Source: an uncultured Propionibacteriaceae bacterium (GTDB lineage Bacteria; Actinomycetota; Actinomycetes; Propionibacteriales; Propionibacteriaceae). Taken from it: DNA of 64,000 nt. The stretch is from assembly GCA_945911015.1 (NCBI GenBank), contig CAMDZW010000007.1, forward strand, positions 62,001 through 126,000. The letters run 5' to 3'. Positions 3,181-21,022 of this stretch are shown in pieces; within the stretch, counting starts at the first letter, position 1, and each line of letters begins with the position of its first letter. The position numbers and the translations under genes are program-made. Under the pieces are notes generated by a model that was not told the origin of the DNA, ran no database searches, and worked only from the letters and a program-made list of their open reading frames with translations.

Positions 3181-4491
3181 TCAGTGCTTCGAACGCACCC
3201 GGACCCGCAGACCGTCGCGCGGCTTCATCGTGACCATGCTGCGCGGTCGGATGCGTTGTGGGACGAGGGTGAGCTCGGCCCGGGTCAGGATCCGACTCAG
3301 CATGACCGCGACCTCGGTGACTGCCATCGCTGCGCCCACACAGCGGTGCGCTCCCCCGCCGAACGGGAGGTACTCGTACGGCTTGGGTTTGTGGTGGGAC
3401 GGGTCACCGGCAATCCAACGCTCCGGCCGGAACTCCAGGGGCGCCGGCCACAGTTCCGGCAGTCGGTGAGTGACGTACGGACTGATCACCACCGAGCTGC
3501 CGGGACGAATGTCCTTTCCTGCAAAGGAAATCGGCTCGGCCAACCACCGGGCCAACACCACGACCGGGGCCCACAGGCGCAAAGACTCACTGACCACCCC
3601 GTTGAGGTACGGCATGGAGCGGATCTCCTGCGCGGTCGGCACTCGGTCGCTGGCAACGGCGCGCACTTCTTCGGCCGCGGTTTGCCAGACCTGTGGATCG
3701 GCGAGCATCGCGTGCAGGGCCCACCCCAAAAGTGCGCTGGTGGTCTCGTATCCGGCCACGATCAAGGTGACCGCCTGGTCTCGGATCTCGTGATCGGCCA
3801 AGCCGTCACCAGTCCCGTCACGGCCGTGGACCAAGGTGTCCATGATCGACATCTCGGACCCAGGGTGGAGGCTGCGGACGCGGTCGATCTCGGCATGCAC
3901 GCGAGCATCAACACGATCTCGAGCCGCCATTGCTCTACGCCACTGTGGCGTACGAAGGCGACGTTTCGCCGCCACCGCCTGGGGCATGGCATCACACAAA
4001 TCGATCATGACCTGCAGATCGCCGCCGAGCGTCTCCGCGTCACTGGCCAACGTCGGGCCGAACAGCGTGTCCAGGGTGGTACGACGGATCGCGGAGCGGA
4101 ACTGGGCGAAGGCGTCGTGTTCCTCCCCCGGGCGCCACTGGTCGATGACGCGGTCGGCGTTGGCGGCCATCGTCGGGACATGGTCGGCAATTCGACGATG
4201 GTGCAGACCCGGTTCCACCAGCCGTCGGCGGCGACGATGGTCGGCTCCATCGCTGAGCAGCATTGAGGTCTCGCCGTCGACCGGCCGAAGGAAATCGAGC
4301 GCCCGGCCCCATCGGAACTTGTCGGAGTTGGCGAAGACAAACCGGTTCGCCTCCGGCCCGAGCAGATAGGTGTAGCCACGGCGACCACCCACTGACGCCA
4401 CGGAACCCCGTGTGCGGTGCAGCCACATCAGGCTGTCGGCCAGACGATAGCGGACCCGCTCGCCGAGCGGGCGATGGACGGCATCAGACAC
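3181..4491 (-). CDS. cytochrome P450
   Basis: A haem-thiolate monooxygenase. The cysteine ligand loop FGGGAHRCVG is near the C-terminus, the K-helix ExxR is in SESLRLWAP, and the I-helix oxygen-activation motif is VAGYETTSALL. The C-terminal part is full length for a bacterial soluble P450. The start is uncertain. ATG at 4533 would put the palindrome at 4498-4513 inside the gene and overlap the divergent regulator head to head. GTG at 4491, preceded by GGAACGA, leaves the palindrome as leader or operator and gives about 436 residues, so I prefer it. The gene is divergent from a TetR regulator, a common arrangement for repressor-controlled P450s. No ferredoxin or reductase gene is adjacent, so redox partners must come from elsewhere. 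The substrate is unknown. Confidence 0.9.
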   Translation of the reverse strand: MSDAVHRPLGERVRYRLADSLMWLHRTRGSVASVGGRRGYTYLLGPEANRFVFANSDKFRWGRALDFLRPVDGETSMLLSDGADHRRRRRLVEPGLHHRRIADHVPTMAANADRVIDQWRPGEEHDAFAQFRSAIRRTTLDTLFGPTLASDAETLGGDLQVMIDLCDAMPQAVAAKRRLRTPQWRRAMAARDRVDARVHAEIDRVRSLHPGSEMSIMDTLVHGRDGTGDGLADHEIRDQAVTLIVAGYETTSALLGWALHAMLADPQVWQTAAEEVRAVASDRVPTAQEIRSMPYLNGVVSESLRLWAPVVVLARWLAEPISFAGKDIRPGSSVVISPYVTHRLPELWPAPLEFRPERWIAGDPSHHKPKPYEYLPFGGGAHRCVGAAMAVTEVAVMLSRILTRAELTLVPQRIRPRSMVTMKPRDGLRVRVRSKH

Positions 4492-4497
4492 AATTCG

Positions 4498-4513
4498 TTC
4501 CACAAGTGTGGAA
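4498..4513. promoter_or_regulatory. perfect palindromic operator between P450 and TetR genes
   Basis: TTCCACA-AG-TGTGGAA is a perfect 7+2+7 palindrome in the only non-coding gap between the divergent P450 and TetR genes. Size and position fit a TetR-dimer operator. TACGCT at 4519-4524 could be the -10 box of the regulator, with transcription starting at or next to its ATG at 4532. A repressor bound here would then block the -35 region of tetR and the start region of the P450 transcript. Binding by the adjacent regulator is inferred from position. Confidence 0.65.
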
Positions 4514-4531
4514 ACTACTACGCTACTCCTC

Positions 4532-5191
4532 ATGACGCGAATCGAGATGACGCGGATCGAGGCGACCACCCAGCTACGGCAGAATCTGGTCCTGGCAGCG
4601 GTGGATCTGCTGGCCGAGGACGGACTGCGCGCCGTCACCCACCGTCGGGTCGAACAACGAGCCGGCGTTTCCCAGGGCACGGTGAAGTATCACTTCGGGT
4701 CACTCGACGGGCTCATCGCCGCCGTCGTGGAGCACATGGTCGACGTGGAAGTCACCAGTGTTTTGGCCGTGCCCCGCGAACTGGTCGAGACTGCGCTGGC
4801 GACCGGCCGTGTCCCCGACGCCGTGTGGCAACGCGCCGATGCTGTCCTGCACGAGATGCTCAGCCGCCCCGAGCTGGTCCGCGCCAGGTTCGAGCTCTAC
4901 CTCCATGCTGCAGCACGGCCCGAGCTGCAGACAATGATTGGACGTGGCCGGGATCAGTTCGTCAAGCAGACGGCCGCGTCACTGGCCGAGGTGACAGCGG
5001 GTCAGGCTCCTGACTCGGCCGAGTCAGTCGCTCGGATGATCCTCGCCCTGGTGGACGGCATGCTGCTGCACCACCTCGCAGCGCCCCATCGGAGCTTGGT
5101 CGACGACGGCGCAGCCTGGCTGGTGGCCACGGCCATGTCAGCGCCAATGGTGACCGATCTCGTTAGCCAGCACCAGTCCTTCGCTCAGTGA
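4532..5191 (+). CDS. TetR/AcrR family transcriptional regulator
   Basis: A 219-residue one-component regulator. The N-terminal helix-turn-helix shows the usual TetR pattern (THRRVEQRAGVSQGTVKYHF, then GLIAAVVEHM). The C-terminal half is an all-helical ligand/dimer domain. The first 30 bases are a tandem duplication of a 15-base unit (one mismatch), so the protein begins MTRIEMTRIEAT and has two in-frame ATGs, at 4532 and 4547. Neither has a Shine-Dalgarno sequence, and the -10-like TACGCT ends 7 bases before 4532, suggesting leaderless translation. It probably represses itself and the divergent P450 through the palindrome at 4498-4513. Its 3' end overlaps the convergent aldo/keto reductase by 7 bases. 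Confidence 0.88.
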   Translation: MTRIEMTRIEATTQLRQNLVLAAVDLLAEDGLRAVTHRRVEQRAGVSQGTVKYHFGSLDGLIAAVVEHMVDVEVTSVLAVPRELVETALATGRVPDAVWQRADAVLHEMLSRPELVRARFELYLHAAARPELQTMIGRGRDQFVKQTAASLAEVTAGQAPDSAESVARMILALVDGMLLHHLAAPHRSLVDDGAAWLVATAMSAPMVTDLVSQHQSFAQ

Positions 5192-7302: not shown

Positions 7303-9231
7303 TCACGGCCCTGTCGCAGTGAGCCGCTGGTCGACTGCGTTGACCAGTAGGACAGCACGGCAGAACAGGTCGGCTGCTCGGACCGGATCCTCGGGAGCCG
7401 TCCGCACAACCGCGCAGAGCAGCTGTCCGGTGGTGATCAGGCCAGCCCGCTCCAGCTGCTCGGCCAGCGCGGCGAGCTGCTCGAGGGCCGCCCTGGCCTG
7501 CTGGCGCAGTCCGCGATTGGTCCACGCGGCGATGGCCCGCCGAACTTCGTCGACGAGCTTGGTCTGAGCTGTGCCTGGCCGGCGGGGTGGCGGCGGGAGG
7601 GCGGTGTGCTCGCGGGGCGGCGCCACAGCCGGCACCGCGGCAAGCTCATCCGATGCTACCGCCAGCGGGGCAATGACGGTCTGTCCCCCGCGGCGGGTGA
7701 CCACCCCGGTGACCATACGCACCGATCCCTCGGACAGGAACGCGGCCAGCGTTTCGACTCCGCCGGGTGCAGCAGAGGTGTGGGCCCATTCGAGGACCAT
7801 CTCACCGTGCGGGGTGGTGAGGATCGCCCGCAGCTGTTGGGCAGCAGGATCCCATCCCCAGTCGACCACCTCAGTGACCTCGATGATGCCCACCCCATCG
7901 GCCAGGGTCCGGTGGTTGATCCAGGTCGGAGTGGAACTCCCCCGATCGATCAGGGTGATGGGCCAGGACTTCGGCCCGAGCGGGTTCAACGAGGTTTTGC
8001 GCCGATCCTTGGCAATCTCCACCACACCCAGCGCATACCGGGTCGCTCCGCCGGTGACCACCTGCGATGCGGCCACCCTGGCCACGGTGGTGCCGAGCAT
8101 TCGACGCTGACCGGGCGGCGCCAGGCCGTCCCATTTTCCTTCCATCACAGAGATCTGTCCCGTGTCTGGGTCCAGCAGATGAATCTGCGCCCCCGTGCCA
8201 TCCTTGCCTGCCCAGACCTGAGCACCCAGAGACACCAGCCGCAGGTGCGCAAGCTGCACCGAGCCCGGCGTTCCGATGCCCAGGATCTCTTCCACGGTCC
8301 GGATCGTCGGCGCCGTGCCGTCGACGACGGCACGGGCCGAGACCAAGCGGGCTGGAGCTTCGGCCAGGAGTCGGGCCAGACGCTGAGGATCGGCCGCGGT
8401 GGAACGATCCTGGCGTGACCGGACCTGGCGCACGATTTCGTCGATGTCGGCCACCACCCAGGACCACCCCAACCTCCGGGCCCGTTCGGCGACCCGATCG
8501 AACCGAGTGAACACCGCAGAATCGGCGTTGCCGGCACCGATCAGGATCACCTCCCGGCAGGCTTCGGTCAGGTCAGTCGTCATCGATTCCAGTTCGCCCA
8601 GGCTGGCGTCGACTGCTCGATCCCCCCACTCGACTGTCACTTGCCCGGTCATCGCCGACCCAGCGCGGTCCTCTGCCCGCCGGAACGCCCACACAGCCTG
8701 CGCCAGATGTATGCAGCCTGCGGGCGCGTTGCAGTCGCAGCGGGCATGGGACAGGGAACCCGAGGAGAAGAACCGGACCACGTTCAACGGCAGCTGCGCC
8801 GTCGGTACCCCGTCGACGGCGCTGAGGCGTACGGTGACCGCCTCCTCCGCGGCGGTGGCCAACACCGTGGCACCGACCACGGCGGCCAGCTCCTGGTCAT
8901 CAAAGCCGGCCGGAGACCAGGCTGGCACCTCGTCCCGCGCGTCGTCGGGACTGTCGGCATGGGTGTCCTGATAGGCGAGCACGAGGATCACTCGGTGACG
9001 ACACCAGCCCGAGGCCGGACAACTGCAGGTGGCATCCTTCACGGCCGCACCGGCAGCCAACTGGGTGACCACGCCGTCGTCGAAGACTGCGGTCACTGTC
9101 TGGTCACTGTCCGTGCTCAATTGTGGTGTTCGACCGGCATCAAGGTCCTTGCGAGCACGCTTCACGAAGCCAGGATTGGCCAGCGCGATCAGGGCACTGG
9201 TGGTGAGTTCGAGGAGATCGGTACGGCTCAT
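7303..9231 (-). CDS. SWIM zinc-finger protein (YehQ-like), last gene of the five-gene module
   Basis: A 642-residue protein with an N-terminal SWIM zinc finger, CSCPASGWCRHR (Cys69, Cys71, Cys77, His79). A second SWIM-like CxCx5CxH site, CDCNAPAGCIHL, is at about residues 165-175. The rest has no motif I recognise until a helical C-terminal region rich in Ala and Leu (last 80 residues). SWIM fingers are known zinc-binding protein/DNA interaction domains in Rad51-associated proteins, transposases and bacterial ATPase clusters. The start ATG overlaps the VWA stop as ATGA, so the two are translationally coupled. Content and order match E. coli yehQ at the end of yehI-L-M-P-Q. Its role is probably substrate recognition or adaptor work for the AAA/VWA machine, which is inference. 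Confidence 0.82.
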   Translation of the reverse strand: MSRTDLLELTTSALIALANPGFVKRARKDLDAGRTPQLSTDSDQTVTAVFDDGVVTQLAAGAAVKDATCSCPASGWCRHRVILVLAYQDTHADSPDDARDEVPAWSPAGFDDQELAAVVGATVLATAAEEAVTVRLSAVDGVPTAQLPLNVVRFFSSGSLSHARCDCNAPAGCIHLAQAVWAFRRAEDRAGSAMTGQVTVEWGDRAVDASLGELESMTTDLTEACREVILIGAGNADSAVFTRFDRVAERARRLGWSWVVADIDEIVRQVRSRQDRSTAADPQRLARLLAEAPARLVSARAVVDGTAPTIRTVEEILGIGTPGSVQLAHLRLVSLGAQVWAGKDGTGAQIHLLDPDTGQISVMEGKWDGLAPPGQRRMLGTTVARVAASQVVTGGATRYALGVVEIAKDRRKTSLNPLGPKSWPITLIDRGSSTPTWINHRTLADGVGIIEVTEVVDWGWDPAAQQLRAILTTPHGEMVLEWAHTSAAPGGVETLAAFLSEGSVRMVTGVVTRRGGQTVIAPLAVASDELAAVPAVAPPREHTALPPPPRRPGTAQTKLVDEVRRAIAAWTNRGLRQQARAALEQLAALAEQLERAGLITTGQLLCAVVRTAPEDPVRAADLFCRAVLLVNAVDQRLTATGP

Positions 9232-10346
9232 CGGCGGACCTGTTCGGCGAGCCAGACGGCGAGCTCGCCCGGCGTCATGGCCGCGACCTGTGCCCCTTCG
9301 TTCACGAGCGCGCGGGCCGTGTCGTGGTCGTACATCGGATCGGCCTCGCGATCGAGGGCAGCAAGACCCAGGACGATCGTGCCGTTGTTGACCAACTCCC
9401 TCACCCGGCGCAGCAGGAGCTGCCGGTCGCCGCCCTCGCAGAAGTCCGAGATCACCACCACGATGGACTTGTCCGCTCGAGTGACCTGCTGCTGCGCCCA
9501 GCCGACCGCGTGGGCGATGTCAGTGCCGCCGCCGAGCTGGACCTTCATCAGCAACTCCACCGGATCACCGATGTCGGAGGTCAGATCGACCACGGCGGTG
9601 TCAAAGGCAGCGATACGGGTCTCCATGCCCGGCAGTGACCACAGGCAGCTCGCCATCACGGCCGAGTGGATCACCGAGTCCGTCATTGATCCGGACTGGT
9701 CAACCAGCAAGCAGATCTGCCAGCGCTCGGTGTGGCGTCGGGTGCGGCTCACGAACAACGGCCGTTCGACGAAAAGCTTTTCCTGATGGGGATCCCAGCG
9801 ATGCAGGTTGGCCGCGACGGTGCCCCTGAAGTCAAAGTTGCGGGCCATCGGGACTGGTGAGCGTCGACGACGGTCGAGTGTGCCGGAGAATGCCTGCCGG
9901 ACCTCGGTCTGCATCTGGTCCAACAGCTGCTCCACGACCTTCGTCACGATGCGACGGGCCGCGGCCAAGACCTCAGGGTTCATCAGGTGCTTGGTCTGCA
10001 GGATAGATCGCAGCAGCGACTCCGACGGCTCGATCCGTTCCAGGACGTCGACGCGGGTCACGATTTCGGTGATGCCGAACCGCTCCACCGCATCGGTCTC
10101 GACCCGTTCGATCACCTCCGTCGGGAAGAGGCGGTGCACCGAATCGATCCACTCGGGCACCGACAGGGTCGACCCGCTGGTCCCGCCGGTCCGTTCGCCG
10201 CGGTCGGCCAGCTCAGGATCCCGGCCGTACAACCAGTCCAGTGCCGCATCGGCAGCGGCCAGCCTGCCCTCGAGGCCACCCAGAGACTCCTCGGCGGCCT
10301 CTCCGAGAAGCATCCGCCACCGCTTGAGCGTGTCGGGGATCTCCAT
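9228..10346 (-). CDS. VWA domain protein (CoxE/YehP-like)
   Basis: A 372-residue protein with a C-terminal von Willebrand A domain. The MIDAS metal site is complete: DQSGSM, the threonine in GGGTDIA, and the aspartate of VISDF. The N-terminal half is helical (LKRWRMLLGEAAEESLGG) as in CoxE-type partners of MoxR ATPases. ATG at 10346 was preferred because it overlaps the DUF5682 stop as TGATG; the upstream GTG codons would enlarge the overlap without adding conserved sequence. MoxR ATPases usually act on client proteins through a VWA partner that binds metal-coordinated ligands, and the MoxR gene is two genes upstream in the same transcript. Confidence 0.87.
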   Translation of the reverse strand: MEIPDTLKRWRMLLGEAAEESLGGLEGRLAAADAALDWLYGRDPELADRGERTGGTSGSTLSVPEWIDSVHRLFPTEVIERVETDAVERFGITEIVTRVDVLERIEPSESLLRSILQTKHLMNPEVLAAARRIVTKVVEQLLDQMQTEVRQAFSGTLDRRRRSPVPMARNFDFRGTVAANLHRWDPHQEKLFVERPLFVSRTRRHTERWQICLLVDQSGSMTDSVIHSAVMASCLWSLPGMETRIAAFDTAVVDLTSDIGDPVELLMKVQLGGGTDIAHAVGWAQQQVTRADKSIVVVISDFCEGGDRQLLLRRVRELVNNGTIVLGLAALDREADPMYDHDTARALVNEGAQVAAMTPGELAVWLAEQVRR

Positions 10347-12697
10347 CACGGCTGCACCTCCGGCCACACACCCCACTGGGACAGCTGGGCGATCGCTTCC
10401 GATTCGGCGTGAGTGGCAGCCGCAACCGTGACTGGGTCGTGCACCAGGCGGCCGGTCAGCACTCTGGTCGAGGCGCCCGAGATGTCATGCAGGGAAAGGA
10501 TCTGTTCGGCCAGTCCGCCGCGTTCCCTGGCCGGAAGCCAGCCAAAGGCACCGCGCAGGGCAGGCAATGCGCCAACGAACTCGCCCTCGCCGAGTTCGGT
10601 CACCACCCGATCCAGTCCGGCGACGAACAGCGAGTCGGTGACCAGTTCCTCCCGGGCCAGCGCCATCAGTCCGGCCAGGGCGTCACCGAGCCGACCGACC
10701 GGGCATCGCGACAGCAGCTCGAGCGGATCCGCATGGGTCGCCAGATGCTCCTCCAGACTGATCAGTGCCCCGAGTGCGCCCCCACGACTGGCCGGATCTG
10801 AGGCCCCGTCCTCGGCCTTGCGCCGCAGCACTGCCACCACGCGCTCAGCTGGCACCAACAGGTCGACATCGCTATCAGCGCGCCGAGTGCGGACCAGGTC
10901 ACGCAAGCCGATCAGAAGACCCAGATGAGCATCGATCTCACCCGGCGCGATTGTCGCCGGCGGCTCGATCAGCCACAGGGCCCGATCAGTGATGGCATCC
11001 ACGGTCACCGTGACCGCTGGCAGCGAGTCCCATCCGAGCAGTTGCGGGCTTCGTAACAGCGGGAGGAGCCGTCGTAGGGCACGACCGAGCGCGCCGAGAT
11101 CGGTCTCGGTTGCCACGGCATCGGCGAGCTGTGCCAGCACACCATCGGTGAAACGGGTGAGGCCGGCCCACACCGCTGAATCCAGCGCAGCGGCCAGCCC
11201 GGCCACGTCACCGTTGACCTGTGACACCGCGTCGACCCAACGGGCTCGTGCCGCGTCGGTCAGCGTCCCGCCCCAGGCGCCGGCCTCGATCAGTGCTGCC
11301 AGTCGGGCGTGTGACTCCTGCAAGGACCACGACTCGCTGTGGGTCGCACCGTCGAGAGCGAAGCTCGGGCCCGAGGTGCGCTTGACCCCGGGCAGGTCCA
11401 GCAACCGCAGACGATGCAACACCTGACTGCGGGAACGTTCGGCCGGCCCGGCGAGCAGATCGAGTTCGACCGTGCCGTGCACCGGCAGATCGTGAGATTC
11501 CAGTTCGGCTGCCACAGCGGCAACCAGTGGCGGTTGCGGGGTTCCGGGTGCGAGTGCCCCCTGTGCTGTCCCGGCCAGCACGTCCATCACCTCGACCAGC
11601 ACCGGATCGGTGCCCGGCCGGATCGGCCCCCGGTAGGACCACGGCAGCGGCACGTCCAGAGCGTCGTTGACCCAACTGGCCGCCATCGCGTCAAGCCAGT
11701 CGACACGCAACACCGCGTCGTGGCCACGCAGCCGCGCCAGACCGTGCGCGTGGGTGTGAACCGCGATCAGGGTGGCTGTGGAGGCCGGAAGATTGCGTTG
11801 GCGAAGTCGTTGCCGTACCTGCTCGACCAGCCGCAGTCCGGCACGCTCGGCGCCCAAGCTCCAAAGCCACTGATAGTAGGCCGGTGACGGCATTCCGGAG
11901 GCGTAACCGGTGAAGGAGTCGAGCCGGCGGAAGCTGTACGGCACCAGGTACGATCCGTACCGGACCTGATCGCTGTGGTGGTCGGGAGGCAGCGGGGTCT
12001 GTGGCAGCTGGCCGTCGAACTCGCGCCATCGTCGGGCCAGGCCGGGCGCATGGTAACCGCCACAGACGACCAGAACGGGACCGTCGGCCTCCGCCATCGC
12101 CCAGGCGATCCAGCGAGCCATCATCTCCTCGCGAGCGGCGTTGCCGATCGAACCGGCCGTGTCTGCGCGCAGGCTGCTGAACCACTGGGTGAGCCTCGCG
12201 TCAAGCTCGTCGAGGTCGGTCACCGATTCGAAGACGTGGTCCCACAGTGCGTCGGTGCCCTCGATCCCCATCTGGGCCGACACCTGGGCCTCGAATCTGC
12301 GGAACCGTTGTTCCTCCTCCATCGACGCCGTGTCGGCATACCGGTTGTCGAGCTCGGCGAAGGCAGCGTGCCAGGCCGGCAAGTCGATGAAGCGCGTCCG
12401 GGCGCCGACCTCCCGTCCGACGGTCAGGGCCTGCCACTCCGGGGAATGCTCGGCAAACGGCGCCCACGACGTGTGGTGCCCGGTCGGCGAGGACAGGTAG
12501 GTGTAAACGGCGATGGGCAGGCGGTGGCCGAGGTGGAGCTCGTCAATCCGGTCGTTGACGTCAGCCGGTCCCTCGATCAGGACGTGAGCCGGTCGTACGG
12601 CGCGGATCCGTTCCACCACCAAACGGGCACAGGCCGGCGAATGGTGACGAACTCCGATGATGACCGGCGCCTGACCGACCGACTGTTGCTCGCTCAC
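10346..12697 (-). CDS. DUF5682 family protein (YehM-like)
   Basis: A 783-residue protein. It opens with VIIGVRHHSPACARLV, then AHVLIEGPADVNDRI, and at about residue 200 has VLVVCGGYHAPGLARRW. This histidine-containing strand, acidic EGP strand and later GGYH strand is the DUF5682 signature. To my eye it also resembles the H...E...GxxH layout of the TraB/TIKI-ChaN-EreA hydrolase fold, which is inference. The C-terminal two-thirds is helical and Leu/Ala-rich, with repeat-like spacing. The start overlaps the MoxR stop as ATGA, and the stop overlaps the VWA start by one base. Length is close to E. coli YehM (about 760). No signal peptide or membrane segment is present, so it is cytosolic. Confidence 0.82.
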   Translation of the reverse strand: MSEQQSVGQAPVIIGVRHHSPACARLVVERIRAVRPAHVLIEGPADVNDRIDELHLGHRLPIAVYTYLSSPTGHHTSWAPFAEHSPEWQALTVGREVGARTRFIDLPAWHAAFAELDNRYADTASMEEEQRFRRFEAQVSAQMGIEGTDALWDHVFESVTDLDELDARLTQWFSSLRADTAGSIGNAAREEMMARWIAWAMAEADGPVLVVCGGYHAPGLARRWREFDGQLPQTPLPPDHHSDQVRYGSYLVPYSFRRLDSFTGYASGMPSPAYYQWLWSLGAERAGLRLVEQVRQRLRQRNLPASTATLIAVHTHAHGLARLRGHDAVLRVDWLDAMAASWVNDALDVPLPWSYRGPIRPGTDPVLVEVMDVLAGTAQGALAPGTPQPPLVAAVAAELESHDLPVHGTVELDLLAGPAERSRSQVLHRLRLLDLPGVKRTSGPSFALDGATHSESWSLQESHARLAALIEAGAWGGTLTDAARARWVDAVSQVNGDVAGLAAALDSAVWAGLTRFTDGVLAQLADAVATETDLGALGRALRRLLPLLRSPQLLGWDSLPAVTVTVDAITDRALWLIEPPATIAPGEIDAHLGLLIGLRDLVRTRRADSDVDLLVPAERVVAVLRRKAEDGASDPASRGGALGALISLEEHLATHADPLELLSRCPVGRLGDALAGLMALAREELVTDSLFVAGLDRVVTELGEGEFVGALPALRGAFGWLPARERGGLAEQILSLHDISGASTRVLTGRLVHDPVTVAAATHAESEAIAQLSQWGVWPEVQP

Positions 12698-13791
12698 GGA
12701 AGTCGGTGCCGGGCCTCGTAGAAGGATCGCCAGTGGTCGCCGCGCCCGACCTGTTTGGCGACCTGCTGCTCGAAATAGCGACGCAGCTTGGCCCGGTCAT
12801 CGGGGTCGTCCTTCACGACAGTGCCGCTGATCGAGTCGACCAGGTCCTGGGCTGTCCCCTCGCGCTGGTCGAGGTACCACGCCCTCACCCCGACGGCATG
12901 AGCCACGTTCACTGCCTCAGCCGTGGACATGACGGCTGAAAGCCGGTCCGAGCCACCGGCCGGGTCCCCGTGGCGCAGATCCCGAAATGTGCTGACCAAC
13001 AGCTCAAGCACCGGCTCAGGAACAGTCACCGGGATGCCACTGTCAGCAAGCAGGCGTGAGGAATTCCTGGCCACCAGTTCCAGTTCGGCCGCGAAGTCGA
13101 GAATGGGGAAGACAGTCTCGAAGTCGAACCGGCGTTTCAGAGCCGCACTCATCTCGTTGACGCCGCGGTCTCGGGTGTTGGCTGTCGCGATCAGGTTGAA
13201 CCCGTCGCGGGCGTAGACCATCGCAGCATCACCGCTCAGCTCCGGCACCGCCATCACTCGATCCGACAGCATGCCCAGGAGGCTGTCCTGGACCTCGACC
13301 GGTGAGCGGGTGATCTCCTCGAAGCGGACCAGCTTGCCCTGGCTCATCCCGGTGTGCAGCGGAGCCGGCACCAATGCCCTGGGGCTGGGACCTTCGTTGA
13401 TCAACAGGGCATAGTTCCACGAGTACTTGATCTGGTCCTCGGTGAGGGAGGCGCCGCCCTGGATGGTCAGGGTCGACAGTCCGCTCACTGCGGTCGCGAG
13501 CAACTCCGACAACAAGGACTTCGCGGTGCCCGGTTCACCGACCAACATCAGACCGCGGCCGGTCGCCAGGGTCACCAACATCCGCTCGATCGACGCCACG
13601 GGAGCAACGATCTTCGGCGTCGTCCCCATCTCGGGATCACCGAGGACAAAGGCTTTCGCAGCCTTCAGGCTCAACGCCCACCCGGGCGGTCGCGGATCGG
13701 CGTCGGCTGCGGCCAGTGCGGCCAGCTCATCGGCGTACAGGATCTCCGCGGGTGGCCGCTGCAGAGTCTGGTCCTGGTCGGGTTCGCTCAC
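12694..13791 (-). CDS. MoxR-type AAA+ ATPase (YehL-like)
   Basis: A 365-residue AAA+ ATPase. Walker A is GEPGTAKS, the Walker B-like strand is KLVRFEEI, and sensor-1 is in NLIATANTRDRGV, followed by the arginine-finger stretch ALKRRFDFE. This is the MoxR/RavA group of the helix-2-insert clade, which remodel or metallate client proteins together with VWA partners. ATG 13791 overlaps the stop of the WGR-DUF4132 gene as ATGA, so it is coupled to that gene. It is the only ATPase in the five-gene transcript and thus its probable motor. Confidence 0.9.
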   Translation of the reverse strand: MSEPDQDQTLQRPPAEILYADELAALAAADADPRPPGWALSLKAAKAFVLGDPEMGTTPKIVAPVASIERMLVTLATGRGLMLVGEPGTAKSLLSELLATAVSGLSTLTIQGGASLTEDQIKYSWNYALLINEGPSPRALVPAPLHTGMSQGKLVRFEEITRSPVEVQDSLLGMLSDRVMAVPELSGDAAMVYARDGFNLIATANTRDRGVNEMSAALKRRFDFETVFPILDFAAELELVARNSSRLLADSGIPVTVPEPVLELLVSTFRDLRHGDPAGGSDRLSAVMSTAEAVNVAHAVGVRAWYLDQREGTAQDLVDSISGTVVKDDPDDRAKLRRYFEQQVAKQVGRGDHWRSFYEARHRLP

Positions 13792-16700
13792 ATCAGTCCG
13801 TCCAGGTCACGCAGCATCTCGCTGATCACGATCGGAGAGATCTGGTCGAACGGGACCGGATCGGAGACATCGCCCCACCAGCTGGCCTTGCCGATCGAGA
13901 CCTCGGTGATCTCCTGCTCCGGCGCCCCTTCGAGATAGCCGGTGAACAGACCAGGGTCCAGCTGCGCCACAATTGCACGGCCGTCACCGATCGGCTTCTC
14001 GACGTAACCGGCGACGCCGCCGTCGGCGGGAGTGCCACGTTGCCAGCCGCGATTGGTCAGTCCCAGCACCTTGCCGGTCGGGATCTCGGTGCCTGCCCAC
14101 CGGGTCAGCTTGGTCGAGGAGAGGTCGGTTGCCGACAAGCTCTGACTCTCACGGGCCAACTGTTCGAAAGGTGGCAGCAGTTCGTAGTCGGTGAAGAGCT
14201 GGCCGAAGTCTGCGGCAGTGTCGGCAGGGATCTCCAGCGAGTGTGGGATCCCGACAATGGCGTCCTCGTCGAGGGTGATCGGCTCGTCCTCGGCATCGGT
14301 GTATTCGCCGTCCTCGGACACTCGGAAGAAGGTCTGCGCGGCGCCGTCGGTGAAGCTGGCCCAGACCAGTCGTTGGACCAGGTTCTTGACCAGTGGATGG
14401 CCGGCCAGGAACTGTTCGAAGACAGCCAGATCCCAGCGTCGCTGGGTGCACATGGCGATCTCGAGTCGCAGCACCTGTTGTGCTGCGATGGCGCGTGCGT
14501 CCTTGCGCAGAACCTTCCAGGCGGCGACGGCTTCCTTGGCCAGTGCTGCATCGTCGCTCTGCCGTGGCTTGGGAAGGTCTTTCAGGCGCTTGCCCTCCTC
14601 GTCCCGTACGTAGGGCTTGAGCGCCTCGTCGAAGCCGACGGTGAATCGGCGCGGCCCGAAGTCGAGCTCCATGGTGCCGTCGGCAGCGAGCCCCAAGTCC
14701 GGTGCGAGCCGGTCGGCGAGTTCCTCGGTGCTGAGACCGCGGTTCTCGGCGATGGCCTGGATCTTCTCCTTGGCAGCTTCCTGCAGCGCCTTGAACTTCA
14801 CCTTGGTGGCGATGCCATTCAGCTGCATCAACGCGAGGTCGGTGCCGATCCCTTCCAGTACGGAAAGCCCGGTCACCGCCCGCTTGTGCTGCGATTCCCC
14901 CGGCCAGGCCCGCAGCAGCGGTGTGATCCGCCGTGCCGTCTCGTCGTCACCGACCAAACCGAGGATGGTCATCGCCCAGGACTCCTTGCTCGCTCCTCCT
15001 GACGCGAGCCAGGCGGAGAACATGTCCCAGGCAAACTCAGCCAAGGAGTCGGCATCAGCCTGCTCGACGACCTGGGTGATGCCCGCATAGGGCTCGTCAT
15101 CGACCGGCGGGAACGCCAACATGGTGCCGAAGTGGTCAACTGCCTCGTCCGGCAGCGCCTTGCCACCGATCGTGATCGGCGTCCAGACAGACGGCGTCCA
15201 CCAGGCCGGCCGCTTGCCGATCTTGGTCGGGAAGCGGTCGGTCGCATCCTGGTCGAGGACCGCCACCACGGCTGCGGTGACTGCAGGGTCCTCGTACCGG
15301 TCGGCGGTCGCGAGGATCATGGTCCGCAACTCCGGGTCCAGCGCGAGCCGCTGCAGTGCCGTACGAGCACAGTCGAGCGCCTCGCCCTTCTTCCCGAGCG
15401 CAGGCGCGATCAGCCCGGCCGCGGCATGTTCGGGATGGGCCAACAACCACTGCAATCCCTGTTCACGGATCGACTTCAACTTCAGGAAGGCACGCGCCAT
15501 GATCGGCGCCAGTTCCACTGATCCGAAATGCATCGCCGTCGAGATCTCGTCGGTGGGGTGGCGCCGTATGGTCTTGTGGAAGCCGGGCAGCGCCGCCGTC
15601 CCCCAGGTGGCCATGACGCGGGCGGTGTCGTTGTCGTCATCACCGATGCCGGCCAACGCGTTCCACACCTCAAGGGCAAACCCGGGACGCACACTGTCGA
15701 TGACCGCCCGCCCGGTCCCGGCCAGAACGTCTCCACGGAGGGTCTCGCGTTGCCAGGTGGCCTTGGCGCGCACCACTTTCGCGTACTCCTGGTACGCGGC
15801 CACGACCTGGTCCACGTCACCAGCCGTCAGCGCCTCCGCCATCTGCACCTGGACTGCGATGAATGGGTCGCTGCTGTTACGGAAGTACGTCTGTGAGCAC
15901 AGTCCTTGGGCAACCTCGGTGATGCTGGTGAAGTCCTCACGGCGACGCCAGGGAACCTGCTCCAGTTGACGTTCACGGGCGCCGTCGGGCCATTCCTCGG
16001 TCGGCTCCAGCGGCAGCGGCTCGAGGTCGAAGACCTTCTCCTTCGTCCGCTTCTTCAACCAGGGCGGAGAAACCAACACCTCGGGCAGATCCTCGGCTGC
16101 AGCCTTCTCCCCTCCCCCGGCGAGTCGCGTCTGGGTCTGGCTCAGTTGGGTCTGGGCTGCCGGCGACAGCCAGGGCTTCACCTCGGCGGCCTCTGGATGG
16201 TTCAACAGCACCGTTGAGAACATCGACTTCGCCAACGACGCCGAACGGCTCGTGCCCGCTGCGGCCTCGGCCAGTGCGGCTGCCGCAGCCATCGGCCACC
16301 GCTCCACGGCGCCCTGCAACCGGCCGAGATACTCCTTGTTGCGGTGGGCCACCGAGAGCAGACCGGTGATTGCTTCTGGCGTACCGATCCGCCGCAGTGC
16401 TTCACCGGCACATTCCTCGTCAGCGCAGGCTGCCAACATCCGGGCCGACGCGCTGCCCCGCTCCACCACGTACGAGTGGACCAGGCCGCGGTTGCAGCCG
16501 AACCGGTTGTACTCCGGCTTCGGACCCTTGACGGCGAGAGCCGCCAGCTCCGGGGTGGTGACCAGTCCCTGCAACAACTCGAGATGGTCGGACCGCTCAC
16601 CGTCGAACCGCACCGCCCGATCGGCGAACTCGGGATGGTCGGGCAACATCAGTGCGACACTGATCTGACGCCGATGGGACAACTCGGCCCAACGCCGGTC

Positions 16701-17567
16701 CGCAATCTCGACGACCGCTGTCCAATCCTGTTCACTCGCCATCGCCAGTGCGGCCCGCATGACCCATTCCTGCTCGACGAAGGGTTTGCCGCGGTCGTCG
16801 TCACCCTCGGCGACGCTCAGTGCGTACTTGCCGTGGGACCAACTGTTCGCGATGTGGATGCGGTAGCTGTCGAGCAGCAGTTCGAAGGCCTTGACGAAGC
16901 CGAACCGTTCGATCACGACGATCATCGTCAGACTGGTCCCGGTGTGGACGGCCCGGGTCAGTGCCAGATACGCGACTGCCTGTTCCTCAGTCAGCTGTTC
17001 CGGGTCGACCTCGGTGAAGCAGATCTCCAACATTGAGTGCAGGTGGGGTGCGGTGTTCGGCTTGTCCTTGTGGTAGCCGTCGCGCAGTCGGGCCGCAATT
17101 GCCCCCCAGTCCGGGCCCGAACGCAGCGCCTCCATCGTCGGGTTGCCACGGGTCGCGAATGCAGCATTGCGGAACTCGTCATCAAGGTCGACCGGGTCGC
17201 CGTCGCGCAGCCACGGTGGGGTCCCGGATGCGTCCGGGTCGGTGGCCGCTTCCGGCTCGGGGGCCGTCCTGGGCTCGGGTGCCTTCGCAGGCTTCTCGAC
17301 GGCGAGTGGCTCGGACGGTGTGGTCTCGTCCGCCGCGGCGACCGGCTCCGGGTCGTTCACCGAACCGACTTCCACATAGCCCTTCTTGGTCTTCTGGTTG
17401 ATCAGCTTGGTCTGCTCCGCCTCGGCCGCCGCCGGGTCGTCGAGGGTCTTGGTCTTCGTCTGGCCGTCGGTGCCAATGCGCCCCCACTGGGTTGTCACAT
17501 CATTGTCCGAGATCGTGACCTGCCAGAACTTCGCCGACGTTCCCTCAACCAACTCGAACCTGCGCAT
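13788..17567 (-). CDS. WGR domain plus DUF4132 protein (YehI/MolR-like), first gene of the five-gene module
   Basis: A 1259-residue protein. Residues 1-70 are a WGR domain (FWQVTISDNDVTTQWGRIGT), a fold otherwise seen in PARP-type enzymes and in MolR proteins. A Pro/Ala/Glu-rich linker follows to about residue 115. A long helical region, apparently repeat-built, fills the centre. The DUF4132 domain lies near the C-terminus, roughly residues 930-1150 (starting near KALQEAAKEKIQAIAENRG). No enzyme motif is evident. ATG 17567 is the only reasonable start and is 67 bases from the divergent MFS gene, where the promoter of the whole five-gene transcript must lie. The historic name molR refers to a proposed role in E. 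coli molybdate regulation that I consider weakly supported. The WGR domain suggests contact with nucleic acid ends or with protein modifications. Confidence 0.87.
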   Translation of the reverse strand: MRRFELVEGTSAKFWQVTISDNDVTTQWGRIGTDGQTKTKTLDDPAAAEAEQTKLINQKTKKGYVEVGSVNDPEPVAAADETTPSEPLAVEKPAKAPEPRTAPEPEAATDPDASGTPPWLRDGDPVDLDDEFRNAAFATRGNPTMEALRSGPDWGAIAARLRDGYHKDKPNTAPHLHSMLEICFTEVDPEQLTEEQAVAYLALTRAVHTGTSLTMIVVIERFGFVKAFELLLDSYRIHIANSWSHGKYALSVAEGDDDRGKPFVEQEWVMRAALAMASEQDWTAVVEIADRRWAELSHRRQISVALMLPDHPEFADRAVRFDGERSDHLELLQGLVTTPELAALAVKGPKPEYNRFGCNRGLVHSYVVERGSASARMLAACADEECAGEALRRIGTPEAITGLLSVAHRNKEYLGRLQGAVERWPMAAAAALAEAAAGTSRSASLAKSMFSTVLLNHPEAAEVKPWLSPAAQTQLSQTQTRLAGGGEKAAAEDLPEVLVSPPWLKKRTKEKVFDLEPLPLEPTEEWPDGARERQLEQVPWRRREDFTSITEVAQGLCSQTYFRNSSDPFIAVQVQMAEALTAGDVDQVVAAYQEYAKVVRAKATWQRETLRGDVLAGTGRAVIDSVRPGFALEVWNALAGIGDDDNDTARVMATWGTAALPGFHKTIRRHPTDEISTAMHFGSVELAPIMARAFLKLKSIREQGLQWLLAHPEHAAAGLIAPALGKKGEALDCARTALQRLALDPELRTMILATADRYEDPAVTAAVVAVLDQDATDRFPTKIGKRPAWWTPSVWTPITIGGKALPDEAVDHFGTMLAFPPVDDEPYAGITQVVEQADADSLAEFAWDMFSAWLASGGASKESWAMTILGLVGDDETARRITPLLRAWPGESQHKRAVTGLSVLEGIGTDLALMQLNGIATKVKFKALQEAAKEKIQAIAENRGLSTEELADRLAPDLGLAADGTMELDFGPRRFTVGFDEALKPYVRDEEGKRLKDLPKPRQSDDAALAKEAVAAWKVLRKDARAIAAQQVLRLEIAMCTQRRWDLAVFEQFLAGHPLVKNLVQRLVWASFTDGAAQTFFRVSEDGEYTDAEDEPITLDEDAIVGIPHSLEIPADTAADFGQLFTDYELLPPFEQLARESQSLSATDLSSTKLTRWAGTEIPTGKVLGLTNRGWQRGTPADGGVAGYVEKPIGDGRAIVAQLDPGLFTGYLEGAPEQEITEVSIGKASWWGDVSDPVPFDQISPIVISEMLRDLDGLM

Positions 17568-17634: not shown

Positions 17635-18918
17635 GTGGACCTACAGTCGGTGTCCGTGTCAGTCGTCTCCCCTGTCTCGGCCTCGGCGCTGGCCGAAGTC
17701 CGCCGCCGCACCACAGCCGTCCTGGTGATCAGCCAGGTCATCGGCACGATCGGTGTCGGTGTGGCTCCGTCCATCGGTGTGCTCCTCGCCGAGGAGGTCA
17801 CCCAGAACGAGGCCTGGGCGGGGCTGGCCCGGACTGCGAGCACTCTCGGTGCCGCACTCTTCGGCATCCCGCTGGGCAATCTGGCTGCACGACGAGGACG
17901 ACGGGTGGCCCTGGCCACCGGGTGGTGGACCGCAGCTGTCGGTGGCGCGATCCTGGTGGCCGCTGCCCAATGGTCGCTGGTGGTGCCACTGTTCGTCGGG
18001 CTGTTCCTGATCGGAGCCGGGTCGGCGGTGAGCCTGCAGGCGCGGTTCGCGGCGGCCGATCTGGCTGAGCCCCACCGCAAGGCCAGAGTGCTGGCGATGG
18101 TCGTGTGGGTGGGCACCCTCGGCTCGGTGCTCGGCCCCAACCTCGGTGTTCCCGGTGAGATCGTGGAACGTCTGACCGGGCTGTCCGTCTTCGGCAGTGC
18201 ATTCGGGATCGCCGCGGCCTGCATGGCCATCGCCGGCGTGGTCATCATCGCTGCGCTGCGCCCCGACCCGCTGCTGCTCTCGCGGACCCTGCCCGGAGCC
18301 CAGTCCGCCCCGGCCCGTACCACCGGCAGCCGATTCGCCCAGATGGTGGCCGAGCTGCGCACGAACGCTCGCGCCCGCTATGCCGTGGTGGCGATCATCA
18401 CCGCCCAGATCGTCATGGTGGCCGTGATGACGATGACCCCGGTGCACATCGCCCACCACGGCGGGTCGGTCACCCTGGTCGGCATCACGATCAGCCTCCA
18501 CGTCCTCGGCATGTTTGCGCTGGCGCCGGTGGTCGGACAACTCGTCGACCGCATCGGTGCCCGGATCACCGTGCTGATCGGTCTGGCGATCTTCCTGGCC
18601 TCCTTGCTGATCGGAGCACTGCGCCCCGACGGGACAGGCTGGATCATCACCTCGTTGATCCTGCTCGGTCTGGGCTGGTCCTTCGTGAATGTCGCGGGAT
18701 CGGCGCTGTTCAGCGCAGCCGTCGTCGGAGACCACCGGGCGAGCGCCCAGGGTGGCGTCGATGCCGTGTCGAACCTGTGCGGCGCGACCGCGGCCTTTGC
18801 AGCCGGCCCGCTGCTGGCCGTCAGCAGCTTCTCCTTCCTGGCCGTGGTGTCGATCGTGGTGCTGGTGCCACTGACGGTGTTGTCCCTGCTCCCGGCCGGT
18901 CGCCGGTGGGTCGAGTGA
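17635..18918 (+). CDS. MFS transporter (first of a coupled pair)
   Basis: A 427-residue major facilitator permease with about 12 hydrophobic helices. The loop 2-3 motif reads GNLAARRGRRVAL and its second-half counterpart GQLVDRIGARITV. GTG 17635 is used; GTG codons at 17650 and 17656 are alternatives. The gap to the divergent WGR-DUF4132 gene is 67 bases, so the two promoters share it. The stop overlaps the next MFS gene start as GTGA, so both are probably made together. The general shape is that of drug or metabolite exporters. The substrate is unknown. Confidence 0.82.
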   Translation: MDLQSVSVSVVSPVSASALAEVRRRTTAVLVISQVIGTIGVGVAPSIGVLLAEEVTQNEAWAGLARTASTLGAALFGIPLGNLAARRGRRVALATGWWTAAVGGAILVAAAQWSLVVPLFVGLFLIGAGSAVSLQARFAAADLAEPHRKARVLAMVVWVGTLGSVLGPNLGVPGEIVERLTGLSVFGSAFGIAAACMAIAGVVIIAALRPDPLLLSRTLPGAQSAPARTTGSRFAQMVAELRTNARARYAVVAIITAQIVMVAVMTMTPVHIAHHGGSVTLVGITISLHVLGMFALAPVVGQLVDRIGARITVLIGLAIFLASLLIGALRPDGTGWIITSLILLGLGWSFVNVAGSALFSAAVVGDHRASAQGGVDAVSNLCGATAAFAAGPLLAVSSFSFLAVVSIVVLVPLTVLSLLPAGRRWVE

Positions 18919-20051
18919 CGACCACAGCCGTACGGGGTCAGCTCACCTCGGTCACGATCGCCAGTGCGGTCGGGATCGCGGTCTTCTATGCGGCGTACTC
19001 GCTGATCCCGATCACCCGGGCCGATGAACCGGCGGTGGCGAGCGCCTTCCTCGGCGTGATGATGGGGTTCGTCATCATCGTGCAGCCAGTGACTCCGGCC
19101 CTGGTCCGCCGCTTCTCGGTCCGGCCTGTCCTGCAGGTTTCCCTGCTCACCATCACCGCCGGCGTGCTGCTCATCGGTTGGGCACCCGGTCTGATCGTCC
19201 TGCTGGTGGGAGCCCTGGTCGCCGGCAGCGGCATCGGTGTCCTGGTTGTCTCCGGCGCCCAAGGCATCGGACTGCTCGCTCTGGGCCCGCGGCTGTCCCG
19301 CGAACTCGGCCTCTACGGTCTGGTCACCATCACCTCGTCCGCGGTCGGTGCACCACTGGGTGTGCAGTTGGGAACATCGGCATCACCACAGGTGTTCGGC
19401 GTGGTCGCAGCCGGGCTCTGCGCCCTGAGTGTCGCCGGCACCTTCGGCCTGCGCGGCGATCTCGGCCGGGCCGGCGCTGACGAACAGCCGACGCGCACGT
19501 CCACGTCCTTGGTGGCCGGTCTGGTACGGGCACGGTGGACCTTGCTGCTCATGGTCGTCACCATCCTCGTGCTGTCACACGGACTGACCACATTGCCGAT
19601 CGTCGTCAGCGCAACGGTCAGTCCGGCCATGGTGGTGCTCGGGGTGCAGTTCGGCAATGCGGTCGGTCGGGGTGTCGGCGGCCAGCTGGAGCACCGCATC
19701 GGGCACCGTCGGGTGGTGGTCTCCGCCCTCGCCCTGCTGGTCCTCGGCACGGTGGGGACCGTCGTCGTGCCCGGGTCCGTGCTGGTGTTGGCGCCGGCGG
19801 TGTTGATCGGGATCGGGGTGGGCATGATCCAGACGGCGGCGCTGCACTCAACCATGGTCCAAGCGGGGCCGGGTTCAGGATCAGTGTTGTGGAACATCAC
19901 GATCGACACCGGACTGTGGCTCGGCGGGATCTTCACCGGCATTGCCCTCGCACACGGTGTGACTGCAGTGGCCAGTCTGGTCGTCGCTGGGATCTCGGTG
20001 CTGGCGGGTGTCATCGGGCTCCGACAGCGTGATGCTAGCGTCACTCCATGA
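18915..20051 (+). CDS. MFS transporter (second of a coupled pair)
   Basis: A 378-residue major facilitator permease with around 12 short hydrophobic segments and little loop sequence. The start is the GTG at 18915, which overlaps the upstream MFS stop (GTGA). Reading further upstream would run through the previous gene in another frame. The second half carries a GQLEHRIGHRRVV loop that resembles the MFS loop 8-9 signature. It is shorter than its neighbour and only distantly similar to it. The coupling suggests equimolar synthesis, perhaps as a heteromeric or functionally paired exporter. The substrate is not predictable. Confidence 0.8.
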   Translation: MTTTAVRGQLTSVTIASAVGIAVFYAAYSLIPITRADEPAVASAFLGVMMGFVIIVQPVTPALVRRFSVRPVLQVSLLTITAGVLLIGWAPGLIVLLVGALVAGSGIGVLVVSGAQGIGLLALGPRLSRELGLYGLVTITSSAVGAPLGVQLGTSASPQVFGVVAAGLCALSVAGTFGLRGDLGRAGADEQPTRTSTSLVAGLVRARWTLLLMVVTILVLSHGLTTLPIVVSATVSPAMVVLGVQFGNAVGRGVGGQLEHRIGHRRVVVSALALLVLGTVGTVVVPGSVLVLAPAVLIGIGVGMIQTAALHSTMVQAGPGSGSVLWNITIDTGLWLGGIFTGIALAHGVTAVASLVVAGISVLAGVIGLRQRDASVTP

Positions 20052-20101
20052 AAGATCGTTCCATGTTGTTGAGGGATTCACGGTGAGGAGAGGTTGTGGC
20101 G

Positions 20102-21022
20102 ATGACTGAGATCGCTGGTGTGCTGCCGGTGGTGTCCACCCCGTTCGCGGTGGACTGGAGCATCGATCGGGCGAACCTTCGCCGTGAGGTCGACTGGCTC
20201 CTCGGTCACGGCGCCCATGGAGTGACCGTGGGCATGGTCTCGGAGATGCTGCGGCTCAGCCCGGACGAACGGCGTACGTTGTGCGAAGACTTGGTCGCTG
20301 CGGTCGACGGCCGCGGCCTGGTGATCACCTCGGTTGGGGCGGAGTCCACCGACCAGGCGGTCACGCTGGCACGTCATGCCGCCGCTGCTGGCGCCGACGC
20401 CCTGATGGCCAACCCACCGCTCACGGTCTCCGGCCTTGCTGCAGAGCAGTTGATCACCCATTACTGTGCACTCGCGGACGCCTCCGGCGATGTCCCGCTG
20501 ATCGTGCAGGATGCGTCGGGCTACATCGGATCCGCCGTCGCACTGGAGACACTGGCCGAGTTGGCCGATCGCTATGACCACACAAAGATCCAGTTCAAGC
20601 CCGAGGCCCAACCGCTCGGTGCCCGCCTGACGCGGCTGATGGAGCTGACCGAGGGCCGGGCCCGAGTGTTCGAAGGGATCGGTGGGCTGGCCCTGGTCGA
20701 CAACTACCAGCGGGGTGTCGTCGGCTCGATGCCCGGTGCGGATCTGATCTGGGCCGTCGTCCCCCTGTGGCGCAGCCTGGTCGCCGGCGACTTCGACGCC
20801 GCGTACCAGATCCACGCGGCGCTGGCCGCGGTGATGTCGATGGTCTCCAACCTGGATTCCTTCGTGGCCATGGAAAAACACCTTCTGGTACGGCAGGGGG
20901 TCCTGCCTGATGCGCGGCAGCGCCAGCCGGTCGCCTTCGTGCTGGATCCACAGACCCGCGACGAACTCGACCGGCTGACCGACCGGCTTGCCGCTGTCGT
21001 GGGGCACCGGCTCAAGGACTGA
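20102..21022 (+). CDS. dihydrodipicolinate synthase/N-acetylneuraminate lyase family aldolase
   Basis: A 306-residue class I aldolase. The Schiff-base lysine is in HTKIQFKPEAQP, and the early barrel strand motif is GVLPVVSTPF. The GTVGS-type phosphate/keto-acid loop is replaced by GVTVGMVSEM, so this is probably not the lysine-pathway DapA but a paralogue acting on a 2-keto-3-deoxy sugar acid or similar. GAGGAGAGG at 20085-20093 lies 8 bases before ATG 20102, which decides the start over the GTG at 20096. It is 50 bases downstream of the MFS pair and near a polyol/uronate dehydrogenase gene, which fits a sugar-acid catabolic set. Confidence 0.85.
   Translation: MTEIAGVLPVVSTPFAVDWSIDRANLRREVDWLLGHGAHGVTVGMVSEMLRLSPDERRTLCEDLVAAVDGRGLVITSVGAESTDQAVTLARHAAAAGADALMANPPLTVSGLAAEQLITHYCALADASGDVPLIVQDASGYIGSAVALETLAELADRYDHTKIQFKPEAQPLGARLTRLMELTEGRARVFEGIGGLALVDNYQRGVVGSMPGADLIWAVVPLWRSLVAGDFDAAYQIHAALAAVMSMVSNLDSFVAMEKHLLVRQGVLPDARQRQPVAFVLDPQTRDELDRLTDRLAAVVGHRLKD

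Follow-up and report, generated by a model that had tools for sequence, protein, structure and literature searches.

Do five overlapping genes of an uncultured actinobacterium work as one machine, and if so, on what? The question is raised by positions 7303-17567 of a 64,000-nucleotide stretch from an uncultured Propionibacteriaceae bacterium (GenBank assembly GCA_945911015.1, contig CAMDZW010000007.1, positions 62,001 to 126,000 of the forward strand), which is referred to here, at its full length, as the window. Going by the open reading frame (ORF) list and the sequence, five overlapping genes, designated A to E, lie on the minus strand of this interval, and a check of the sequence agreed with an earlier, sequence-only description (the first-pass annotation) on the five ORFs, their strand and their overlaps of 4, 4, 1 and 4 bases. 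The genes and their junctions are listed below.

13788..17567, minus strand: gene A, a WGR - HEAT-like solenoid - DUF4132 protein of 1259 amino acids (aa), Escherichia coli YehI / MolR family (ORF, Pfam, AlphaFold)
12694..13791, minus strand: gene B, a MoxR AAA+ ATPase of 365 aa, corresponding to YehL (Pfam AAA_5, E 9.7e-31, 107 bits)
10346..12697, minus strand: gene C, a DUF5682 protein of 783 aa, corresponding to YehM (Pfam PF18934, E 3.4e-94, 317 bits; AlphaFold)
9228..10346, minus strand: gene D, a CoxE-type VWA protein of 372 aa from its ATG, corresponding to YehP (Pfam VWA_CoxE, E 6e-53, 180 bits)
7303..9231, minus strand: gene E, a two-SWIM-finger protein of 642 aa, corresponding to YehQ (Pfam SWIM, E 5.4e-4; alignment of 21)
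13788..13791, minus strand: A-B stop/start overlap GTGA, 4 bases (sequence)
12694..12697, minus strand: B-C stop/start overlap GTGA, 4 bases (sequence)
10346..10348, minus strand: C-D stop/start overlap TGATG, 1 base at 10346 (sequence)
9228..9231, minus strand: D-E stop/start overlap ATGA, 4 bases (sequence)

The five genes are a conserved, co-evolving and tightly coupled unit

One genome per species (84,980 genomes) was scanned with a four-sequence DUF5682 alignment, which gave 499 confirmed stretches, and the best 80 of these were taken with 10 kb flanks and combined with the window, E. coli and two actinobacterial loci into a set of 84 loci, annotated by stop-to-stop ORFs and profile hidden Markov models. 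The order A-B-C-D-E was found in 66 of the 84, and the five-gene arrangement is therefore not due to chance. Of the others, five Burkholderia loci have the order B-C-D-E-A, a further two loci have an additional A following E, and the remaining ones are single exceptions or cut contigs. Two proteobacterial genomes (one with the set split over two contigs) have B-C-A-A-D-E; the existence of permuted orders means that the gene set is kept even where its order has changed. The profile envelopes of B-C, C-D and D-E are separated by median gaps of 2-16 bases. Because the 84 loci had been found through C, co-occurrence was tested independently at the level of genomes. Among 319 Pseudomonadota genomes the C profile was present in 12 and the E profile in 8, all 8 being among the 12 and being those with the strongest C match, a coincidence expected by chance at about 2e-13 with kinship not corrected for. 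Distance matrices of the five proteins correlate with pairwise r of 0.87-0.98, and in the trees of all five the nearest relative of the window protein is the Mycolicibacterium frederiksbergense copy.

The first-pass annotation had named rare co-occurrence of the five families as the outcome that would count against it, and both the gene order and the eight E-positive genomes, each with C, gave the opposite. Its proposal that the complete set is co-inherited as a multi-protein unit across distant phyla was borne out in Actinomycetota, Beta-, Gamma- and Alphaproteobacteria and Myxococcota. That the five proteins must be made together, as it also held, is probable from the gene overlaps. The alternative start of gene D, a GTG at 10376, would give a protein of 382 aa.

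Other DUF5682 loci are without WGR-DUF4132 and without the YehQ-type protein, but keep MoxR-DUF5682-VWA. In a SWIM-DUF5691-MoxR-DUF5682-VWA class (e.g. L162, L165 and L124), a SWIM protein and the HEAT-like DUF5691 stand beside MoxR in 13 of 13 loci. In Streptomyces-type loci (L116, L117 and L127), MoxR is preceded by a stand-alone DUF4132 protein of about 290 aa and by a protein of about 1600 aa with no Pfam match, and an ORF with a SWIM-like C-x-C-x5-C-x-H motif follows the VWA gene. A fourth class consists of VWA-MoxR-DUF5682 alone. In three of the four locus classes the MoxR-DUF5682-VWA core thus comes with a SWIM protein and a large scaffold, of HEAT type or other, and this recurrence of the same five roles with exchanged scaffolds is the strongest sign of one machine; the system looks like one five-part machine in several versions. 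That the genes are merely unrelated neighbours held together by co-transfer is hardly credible: mobile cassettes do exist, but co-evolution, retention of the set through rearrangement, genome-level co-occurrence and the five-role sister class all speak against it.

Several loci from Betaproteobacteria (L042, L044, L071 and L086) have a gene-sized insertion of about 800-1550 bases between C and D. Two loci of Betaproteobacteria MS502 (L052 and L084) have MoxR and DUF5682 only, separated by an ORF of 289 aa; no A, D or E was seen in the stretch covered.

Putative engine, hydrolase and recognition proteins

The domains on which a functional reading depends are as follows.

9249..9914, minus strand: VWA domain of D (Pfam PF05762)
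12008..12667, minus strand: N-terminal TraB/Tiki/ChaN-like putative hydrolase domain of C, about aa 11-230 (invariant residues, TraB-shared motif, sub-threshold PF04187, structural match)
17364..17558, minus strand: WGR domain of A, aa 4-68 (Pfam PF05406, E 2.7e-19, 69.5 bits)
14043..14594, minus strand: DUF4132 domain of A, aa 992-1175 (Pfam PF13569, E 5.4e-47, 160.5 bits)
8995..9027, minus strand: SWIM finger 1 of E, CSCPASGWCRH (Cys/His kept in 79-80 of 80)
8707..8739, minus strand: SWIM finger 2 of E, CDCNAPAGCIH (complete in about 63 of 80)

Gene B encodes an AAA_5 domain with intact Walker A and B motifs, sensor 1 and Arg finger, and its counterpart YehL, a name also given to a MoxR subfamily (PMC3893208), stands in the same gene context. 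All 106 MoxR sequences keep the Walker A lysine, the Glu-Glu pair of Walker B, the sensor-1 Asn and the Arg finger unchanged. In the VWA protein the metal ion-dependent adhesion site (MIDAS) DxSxS and the distal Asp are invariant (102 of 102 sequences) and the Thr is present in 100 of 102. Since the catalytic and metal-binding residues of both proteins are all kept, the MoxR-VWA engine should be active. The VWA proteins of 79 loci have a matched length of 376 ± 3 aa and a C-terminal extension of at most 16 aa, and no variable effector was found on the VWA protein in any of these loci.

The CoxE-type VWA domain leads to one alternative, in which a CoxD-CoxE-related MoxR-VWA pair would mature or reactivate a client (metallo)enzyme whose gene lies elsewhere; DUF5682 would be a ChaN-like handler of a cofactor or metal, and the WGR and SWIM proteins would be client adaptors. 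The 180-bit CoxE match and the architecture, fixed and free of effectors, agree with this, as do the need for CoxD and CoxE in [CuSMoO2] assembly (PMC4240915), the haem binding of ChaN-type domains, going by their Pfam name, and the name MolR, derived from an E. coli molybdate phenotype (Lee 1990, as cited in PMC8533742). It is nevertheless unlikely, for no client enzyme gene was found fixed beside the set among the window neighbours and the most frequent flank families, the DNA-binding-type WGR and SWIM parts are left unexplained, and a molybdenum client cannot be general if Thorsellia anophelis, judged by one marker in a draft genome, has all five genes without MoaC.

Protein C, a possible enzyme in the first-pass annotation, does look like one: its N-terminal domain is TraB/Tiki-like, with invariant, active-site-like residues. 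In the window protein these are G15xxH18, E42, D105, E157, R189-E190 and G213xxH216; H18, P21, E157, R189, E190, M193, G213 and H216 are invariant over 106 sequences from all classes, and E42 and D105 are absent only from one alignment row, which is gapped there. TraB proteins have the same residue order, namely G-x-x-H, a Glu about 25 residues on, a further Glu, an Arg followed by Asn, and a second G-x-x-H 23-24 residues later. The ordered pattern GxxH-E-E-R-GxxH, which was written with both families already in view, occurs in 29 of 35 DUF5682 proteins and 11 of 11 TraB proteins, in none of 94 flanking proteins and in 0.3-0.6% of shuffles; it occurs in none of 10 ChaN proteins, although two GxxH motifs are present there too. 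The only recurrent sub-threshold Pfam family for DUF5682 is ChaN (PF04187, Tiki superfamily; 6 of 35, best E 0.052), with TraB matched once, and hhalign gave E 0.0017 for ChaN and 0.0072 for TraB, compared with 0.15-0.5 for controls, at a probability of only 16%.

The AlphaFold model of DUF5682 has a mean predicted local distance difference test (pLDDT) score of 90.4, and its residues 5-228 match chain E of 7w5z, a Tetrahymena complex IV subunit, with Z 9.6 over 191 residues; nearly all other structural matches are to the helical remainder. A TraB-family accessory subunit, which may be 7w5z chain E, is described in Tetrahymena complex IV (PMC10060162). A TraB profile search of the PDB for the identity of that chain returned designed helical bundles only. 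Searching the PDB by sequence for relatives of C likewise returned chance helical matches only. As judged from sequence motifs and the predicted model, DUF5682 is probably a putative metallohydrolase of the TraB/Tiki/ChaN type with a helical-repeat domain fused to it, and the signature that its N-terminal domain shares with TraB/Tiki-like putative metallohydrolases is new here.

Gene A has a WGR domain with solved relatives (2ra8 and the PARP3 WGR domain, 2eoc), and the AlphaFold model of its residues 196-1259 (pLDDT 87.8) is a helical solenoid followed by a C-terminal alpha/beta domain. One to four tandem copies of gene A are present per locus. Loci of Glycomyces, Lentzea and Massilia have 2-4 tandem WGR/DUF4132 paralogues upstream of MoxR, some of them without WGR, a pattern that points to diversification of a recognition subunit. 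In E. coli K-12, the first A paralogue is split into three frames (yehF-yehH, L003:4475-8264), with the WGR piece in yehF and the DUF4132 pieces in yehH, and an intact WGR-DUF4132 copy is found in other Escherichia (L088; strain 164). K-12 deletion collections consequently test an incomplete system.

The SWIM score of E in Pfam is 19.9, compared with a cut-off of 19.6, and its second C-x-C-x5-C-x-H finger is not reported by Pfam. Finger 2 has been lost as a unit (both Cys pairs and the His) in about 17 of 80 loci, and finger 1 almost never. K-12 YehQ (614 aa; L003:17101-19077) is short, in that its similarity to full-length SWIM proteins runs past the stop; the protein of other Escherichia is about 660 aa.

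Candidate roles and distribution

The preferred reading, given a probability of about 0.42, is that ATP drives a switch or activase which controls a Tiki-like enzyme on cues from nucleic-acid-facing proteins, with an accessory role in stress or quality control. The five genes would encode one ATP-driven machine, in which a MoxR hexamer and its VWA partner form a remodelling engine, as in CoxD-CoxE and RavA-ViaA, and DUF5682 is the dedicated third subunit, either a metal-dependent hydrolase or a metal- or cofactor-handling protein. Remodelling driven by ATP would switch the activity of DUF5682 or its access to substrate, and the WGR-HEAT-DUF4132 and SWIM proteins would recognise a trigger or client and deliver it to the engine; this trigger or client is most likely a nucleic acid or a complex bound to one. 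The setting would most likely be an accessory stress-response, damage-response or quality-control system and not a fixed housekeeping pathway. A Deinococcus DUF4132 protein is induced on depletion of the damage regulator DdrO (PMC8533742).

Several points weigh against this. The trigger and the substrate are guesses, and no biochemical or phenotypic datum for the five-gene set was found. The Tiki assignment combines a motif with weak profile and fold signals, of which no single score is significant alone, and with whole models helical repeats rank first in Foldseek. At E. coli yehF, a LexA-like box with one mismatch lies 25 bases upstream, but an exact CTGTN8ACAG box is absent upstream of every other locus tested, and control by damage is therefore not a conserved feature. 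The actinobacterial GAACN4GTTC motif is present in the window only inside gene C and at 61.8 kb, which is chance frequency. Conserved LexA control was rejected on these findings.

The distribution of the set bears on a role in conflict, which the first-pass annotation had raised. In a midpoint-rooted B+C+D+E tree the window groups together with Mycolicibacterium on the proteobacterial side, at 100% support in the Shimodaira-Hasegawa-like approximate likelihood ratio test (SH-aLRT), and both are set away from Glycomyces, Lentzea, Pseudonocardia and Acidimicrobiia; this placement suggests transfer of the whole cassette between Actinomycetota and Proteobacteria, or an old duplication. Variovorax, Burkholderia and Glycomyces form one clade each in the sample. 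Some DUF5682 is present in 33 of 81 genomes of the genus Variovorax, 13 with this version and the others with sister versions, and in 43 of 117 genomes of the window's own family; the window's genome (3.7 Mb) has a single DUF5682 copy and a single DUF4132 copy. A mobilizable Iodobacter plasmid has the complete set beside insertion sequence (IS) elements and a type I restriction system, where the annotation divides E into two ORFs; a conjugative plasmid of Allorhizobium carries all five genes in the order B-C-A-D-E. In contrast, 5162 of 5426 E. coli genomes (about 95%) have the yehLMPQ block, at a single chromosomal position, and a single distant match was found among 50,697 phage records. The neighbours of the set in the window (3181-4680 and 17635-21022) are genes for a cytochrome P450, MFS transporters and a DHDPS-family protein, which are metabolic surroundings for this cassette; an APH-family protein is also encoded nearby, and the flanks of the loci are mostly housekeeping or metabolic genes.

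The conflict proposal is weakly supported by these data, through the patchy spread of the set between species and the plasmid-borne sets; the fixed place in E. coli, the lack of effector turnover and the mostly metabolic flanks do not agree with it. In its anti-phage or anti-plasmid form, the WGR and SWIM proteins would sense invading nucleic acid, MoxR-VWA would set a threshold and DUF5682 would be the effector hydrolase. The Variovorax pattern, the two plasmids, the apparent transfer between Actinomycetota and Proteobacteria and the existence of MoxR-vWA conflict systems (PMC7159879) fit such a role, but besides the three points just given, PADLOC returned only a weak WGR match for the five proteins, few defence genes were found among 94 flanking proteins of about 20 loci, the Iodobacter plasmid being the exception, the window neighbours are of other kinds, and the set is nearly absent from phages. 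A defence role is accordingly judged quite unlikely.

A role as regulator of molybdate metabolism, after the historical MolR annotation, is most improbable. It has the molR name and old genetics behind it (reference 88 in PMC7824862, and PMC4245954), and MoaC was found in 27 of 28 genomes with the set, but 11 of 14 control genomes have MoaC too, so that its presence is nothing unusual, and no molybdenum genes are present at the loci. T. anophelis (G304/L074), with its five genes intact and no MoaC match, rules out molybdate as a general role unless the draft genome is incomplete. As a general label, the molybdate annotation that databases give is misleading.

The preferred reading, an ATP-driven switch on a Tiki-like enzyme, can be widened to an undescribed five-component class, in which a MoxR-VWA engine would switch the Tiki-superfamily metallohydrolase DUF5682 on nucleic-acid cues from the WGR-HEAT and SWIM proteins. 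The class would comprise three or more parallel versions that differ in an exchangeable scaffold (DUF4132, DUF5691 or the protein of about 1600 aa), and would serve as a mobile module for stress or immunity. This wider proposal is tentative and rather unlikely. Among 5.39 million open papers, none was found that treats the five genes together. The MoxR-DUF5682-VWA-SWIM core is present in about 95% of E. coli genomes, yet no established function was found, and if DUF5682 is a Tiki-like hydrolase run by MoxR-VWA, the search for that function can start from a defined active site (H18, E42, H216), a list of partners and available laboratory strains.

Relation to known systems

The closest named counterpart is the E. 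coli locus yehI-yehL-yehM-yehP-yehQ, which the first-pass annotation had named, and rightly, since K-12 has the same five families in the same order with similar lengths. E. coli differs in having an extra A paralogue (yehF-yehH) and yehK, and the window proteins are closer to the Mycolicibacterium and beta/gamma lineages. The sister SWIM-DUF5691 clusters share the MoxR, DUF5682 and VWA families and a SWIM protein with the window, but have DUF5691 in place of WGR-DUF4132, and their SWIM protein is of another family. With the superfamily of TraB/PrgY, Tiki, ChaN and EreA, the N-terminal domain of DUF5682 shares the ordered GxxH - E - E - R - GxxH residues; it differs in being joined to about 500 extra helical-repeat residues, and the sequence similarity is below significance.

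Four MoxR-vWA ternary conflict systems have been published; what defines them is a third component (VMAP, iSTAND, FtsH or beta-propeller) and a vWA protein on which effectors turn over (PMC7159879). The window shares with them a MoxR AAA+/vWA pair with a dedicated third protein, but here this protein is DUF5682, the vWA protein is without effector domains, and SWIM and WGR-HEAT partners are present. In Pfam, protein C matched DUF5682 only, and bpMoxR scored 15.9 bits against a 27-bit cut-off. Because the third component is different and the VWA length nearly constant, the set does not belong to these systems; its working principle may still be similar. If the preferred reading is true, the set would be a MoxR-VWA core of a fifth kind, in addition to these four conflict systems.

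MoxR-VWA pairs act by capturing client proteins and remodelling them (PMC7159879; PMC3893208), and two of these pairs are the nearest characterised engines. CoxD-CoxE resembles the window in combining MoxR with a CoxE-type VWA protein with MIDAS; it differs in that here no CoxF/XdhC-type operon partner and no adjoining client enzyme was seen (no client metalloenzyme or XdhC-like gene was found among the window neighbours or the 25 most frequent of 142 flank families, and a client may be encoded elsewhere), and Tiki-like and SWIM subunits are added. RavA-ViaA is likewise a MoxR-VWA chaperone pair, from E. coli, with clients encoded elsewhere; its MoxR protein is of another subfamily, and it has two genes where the window has five.

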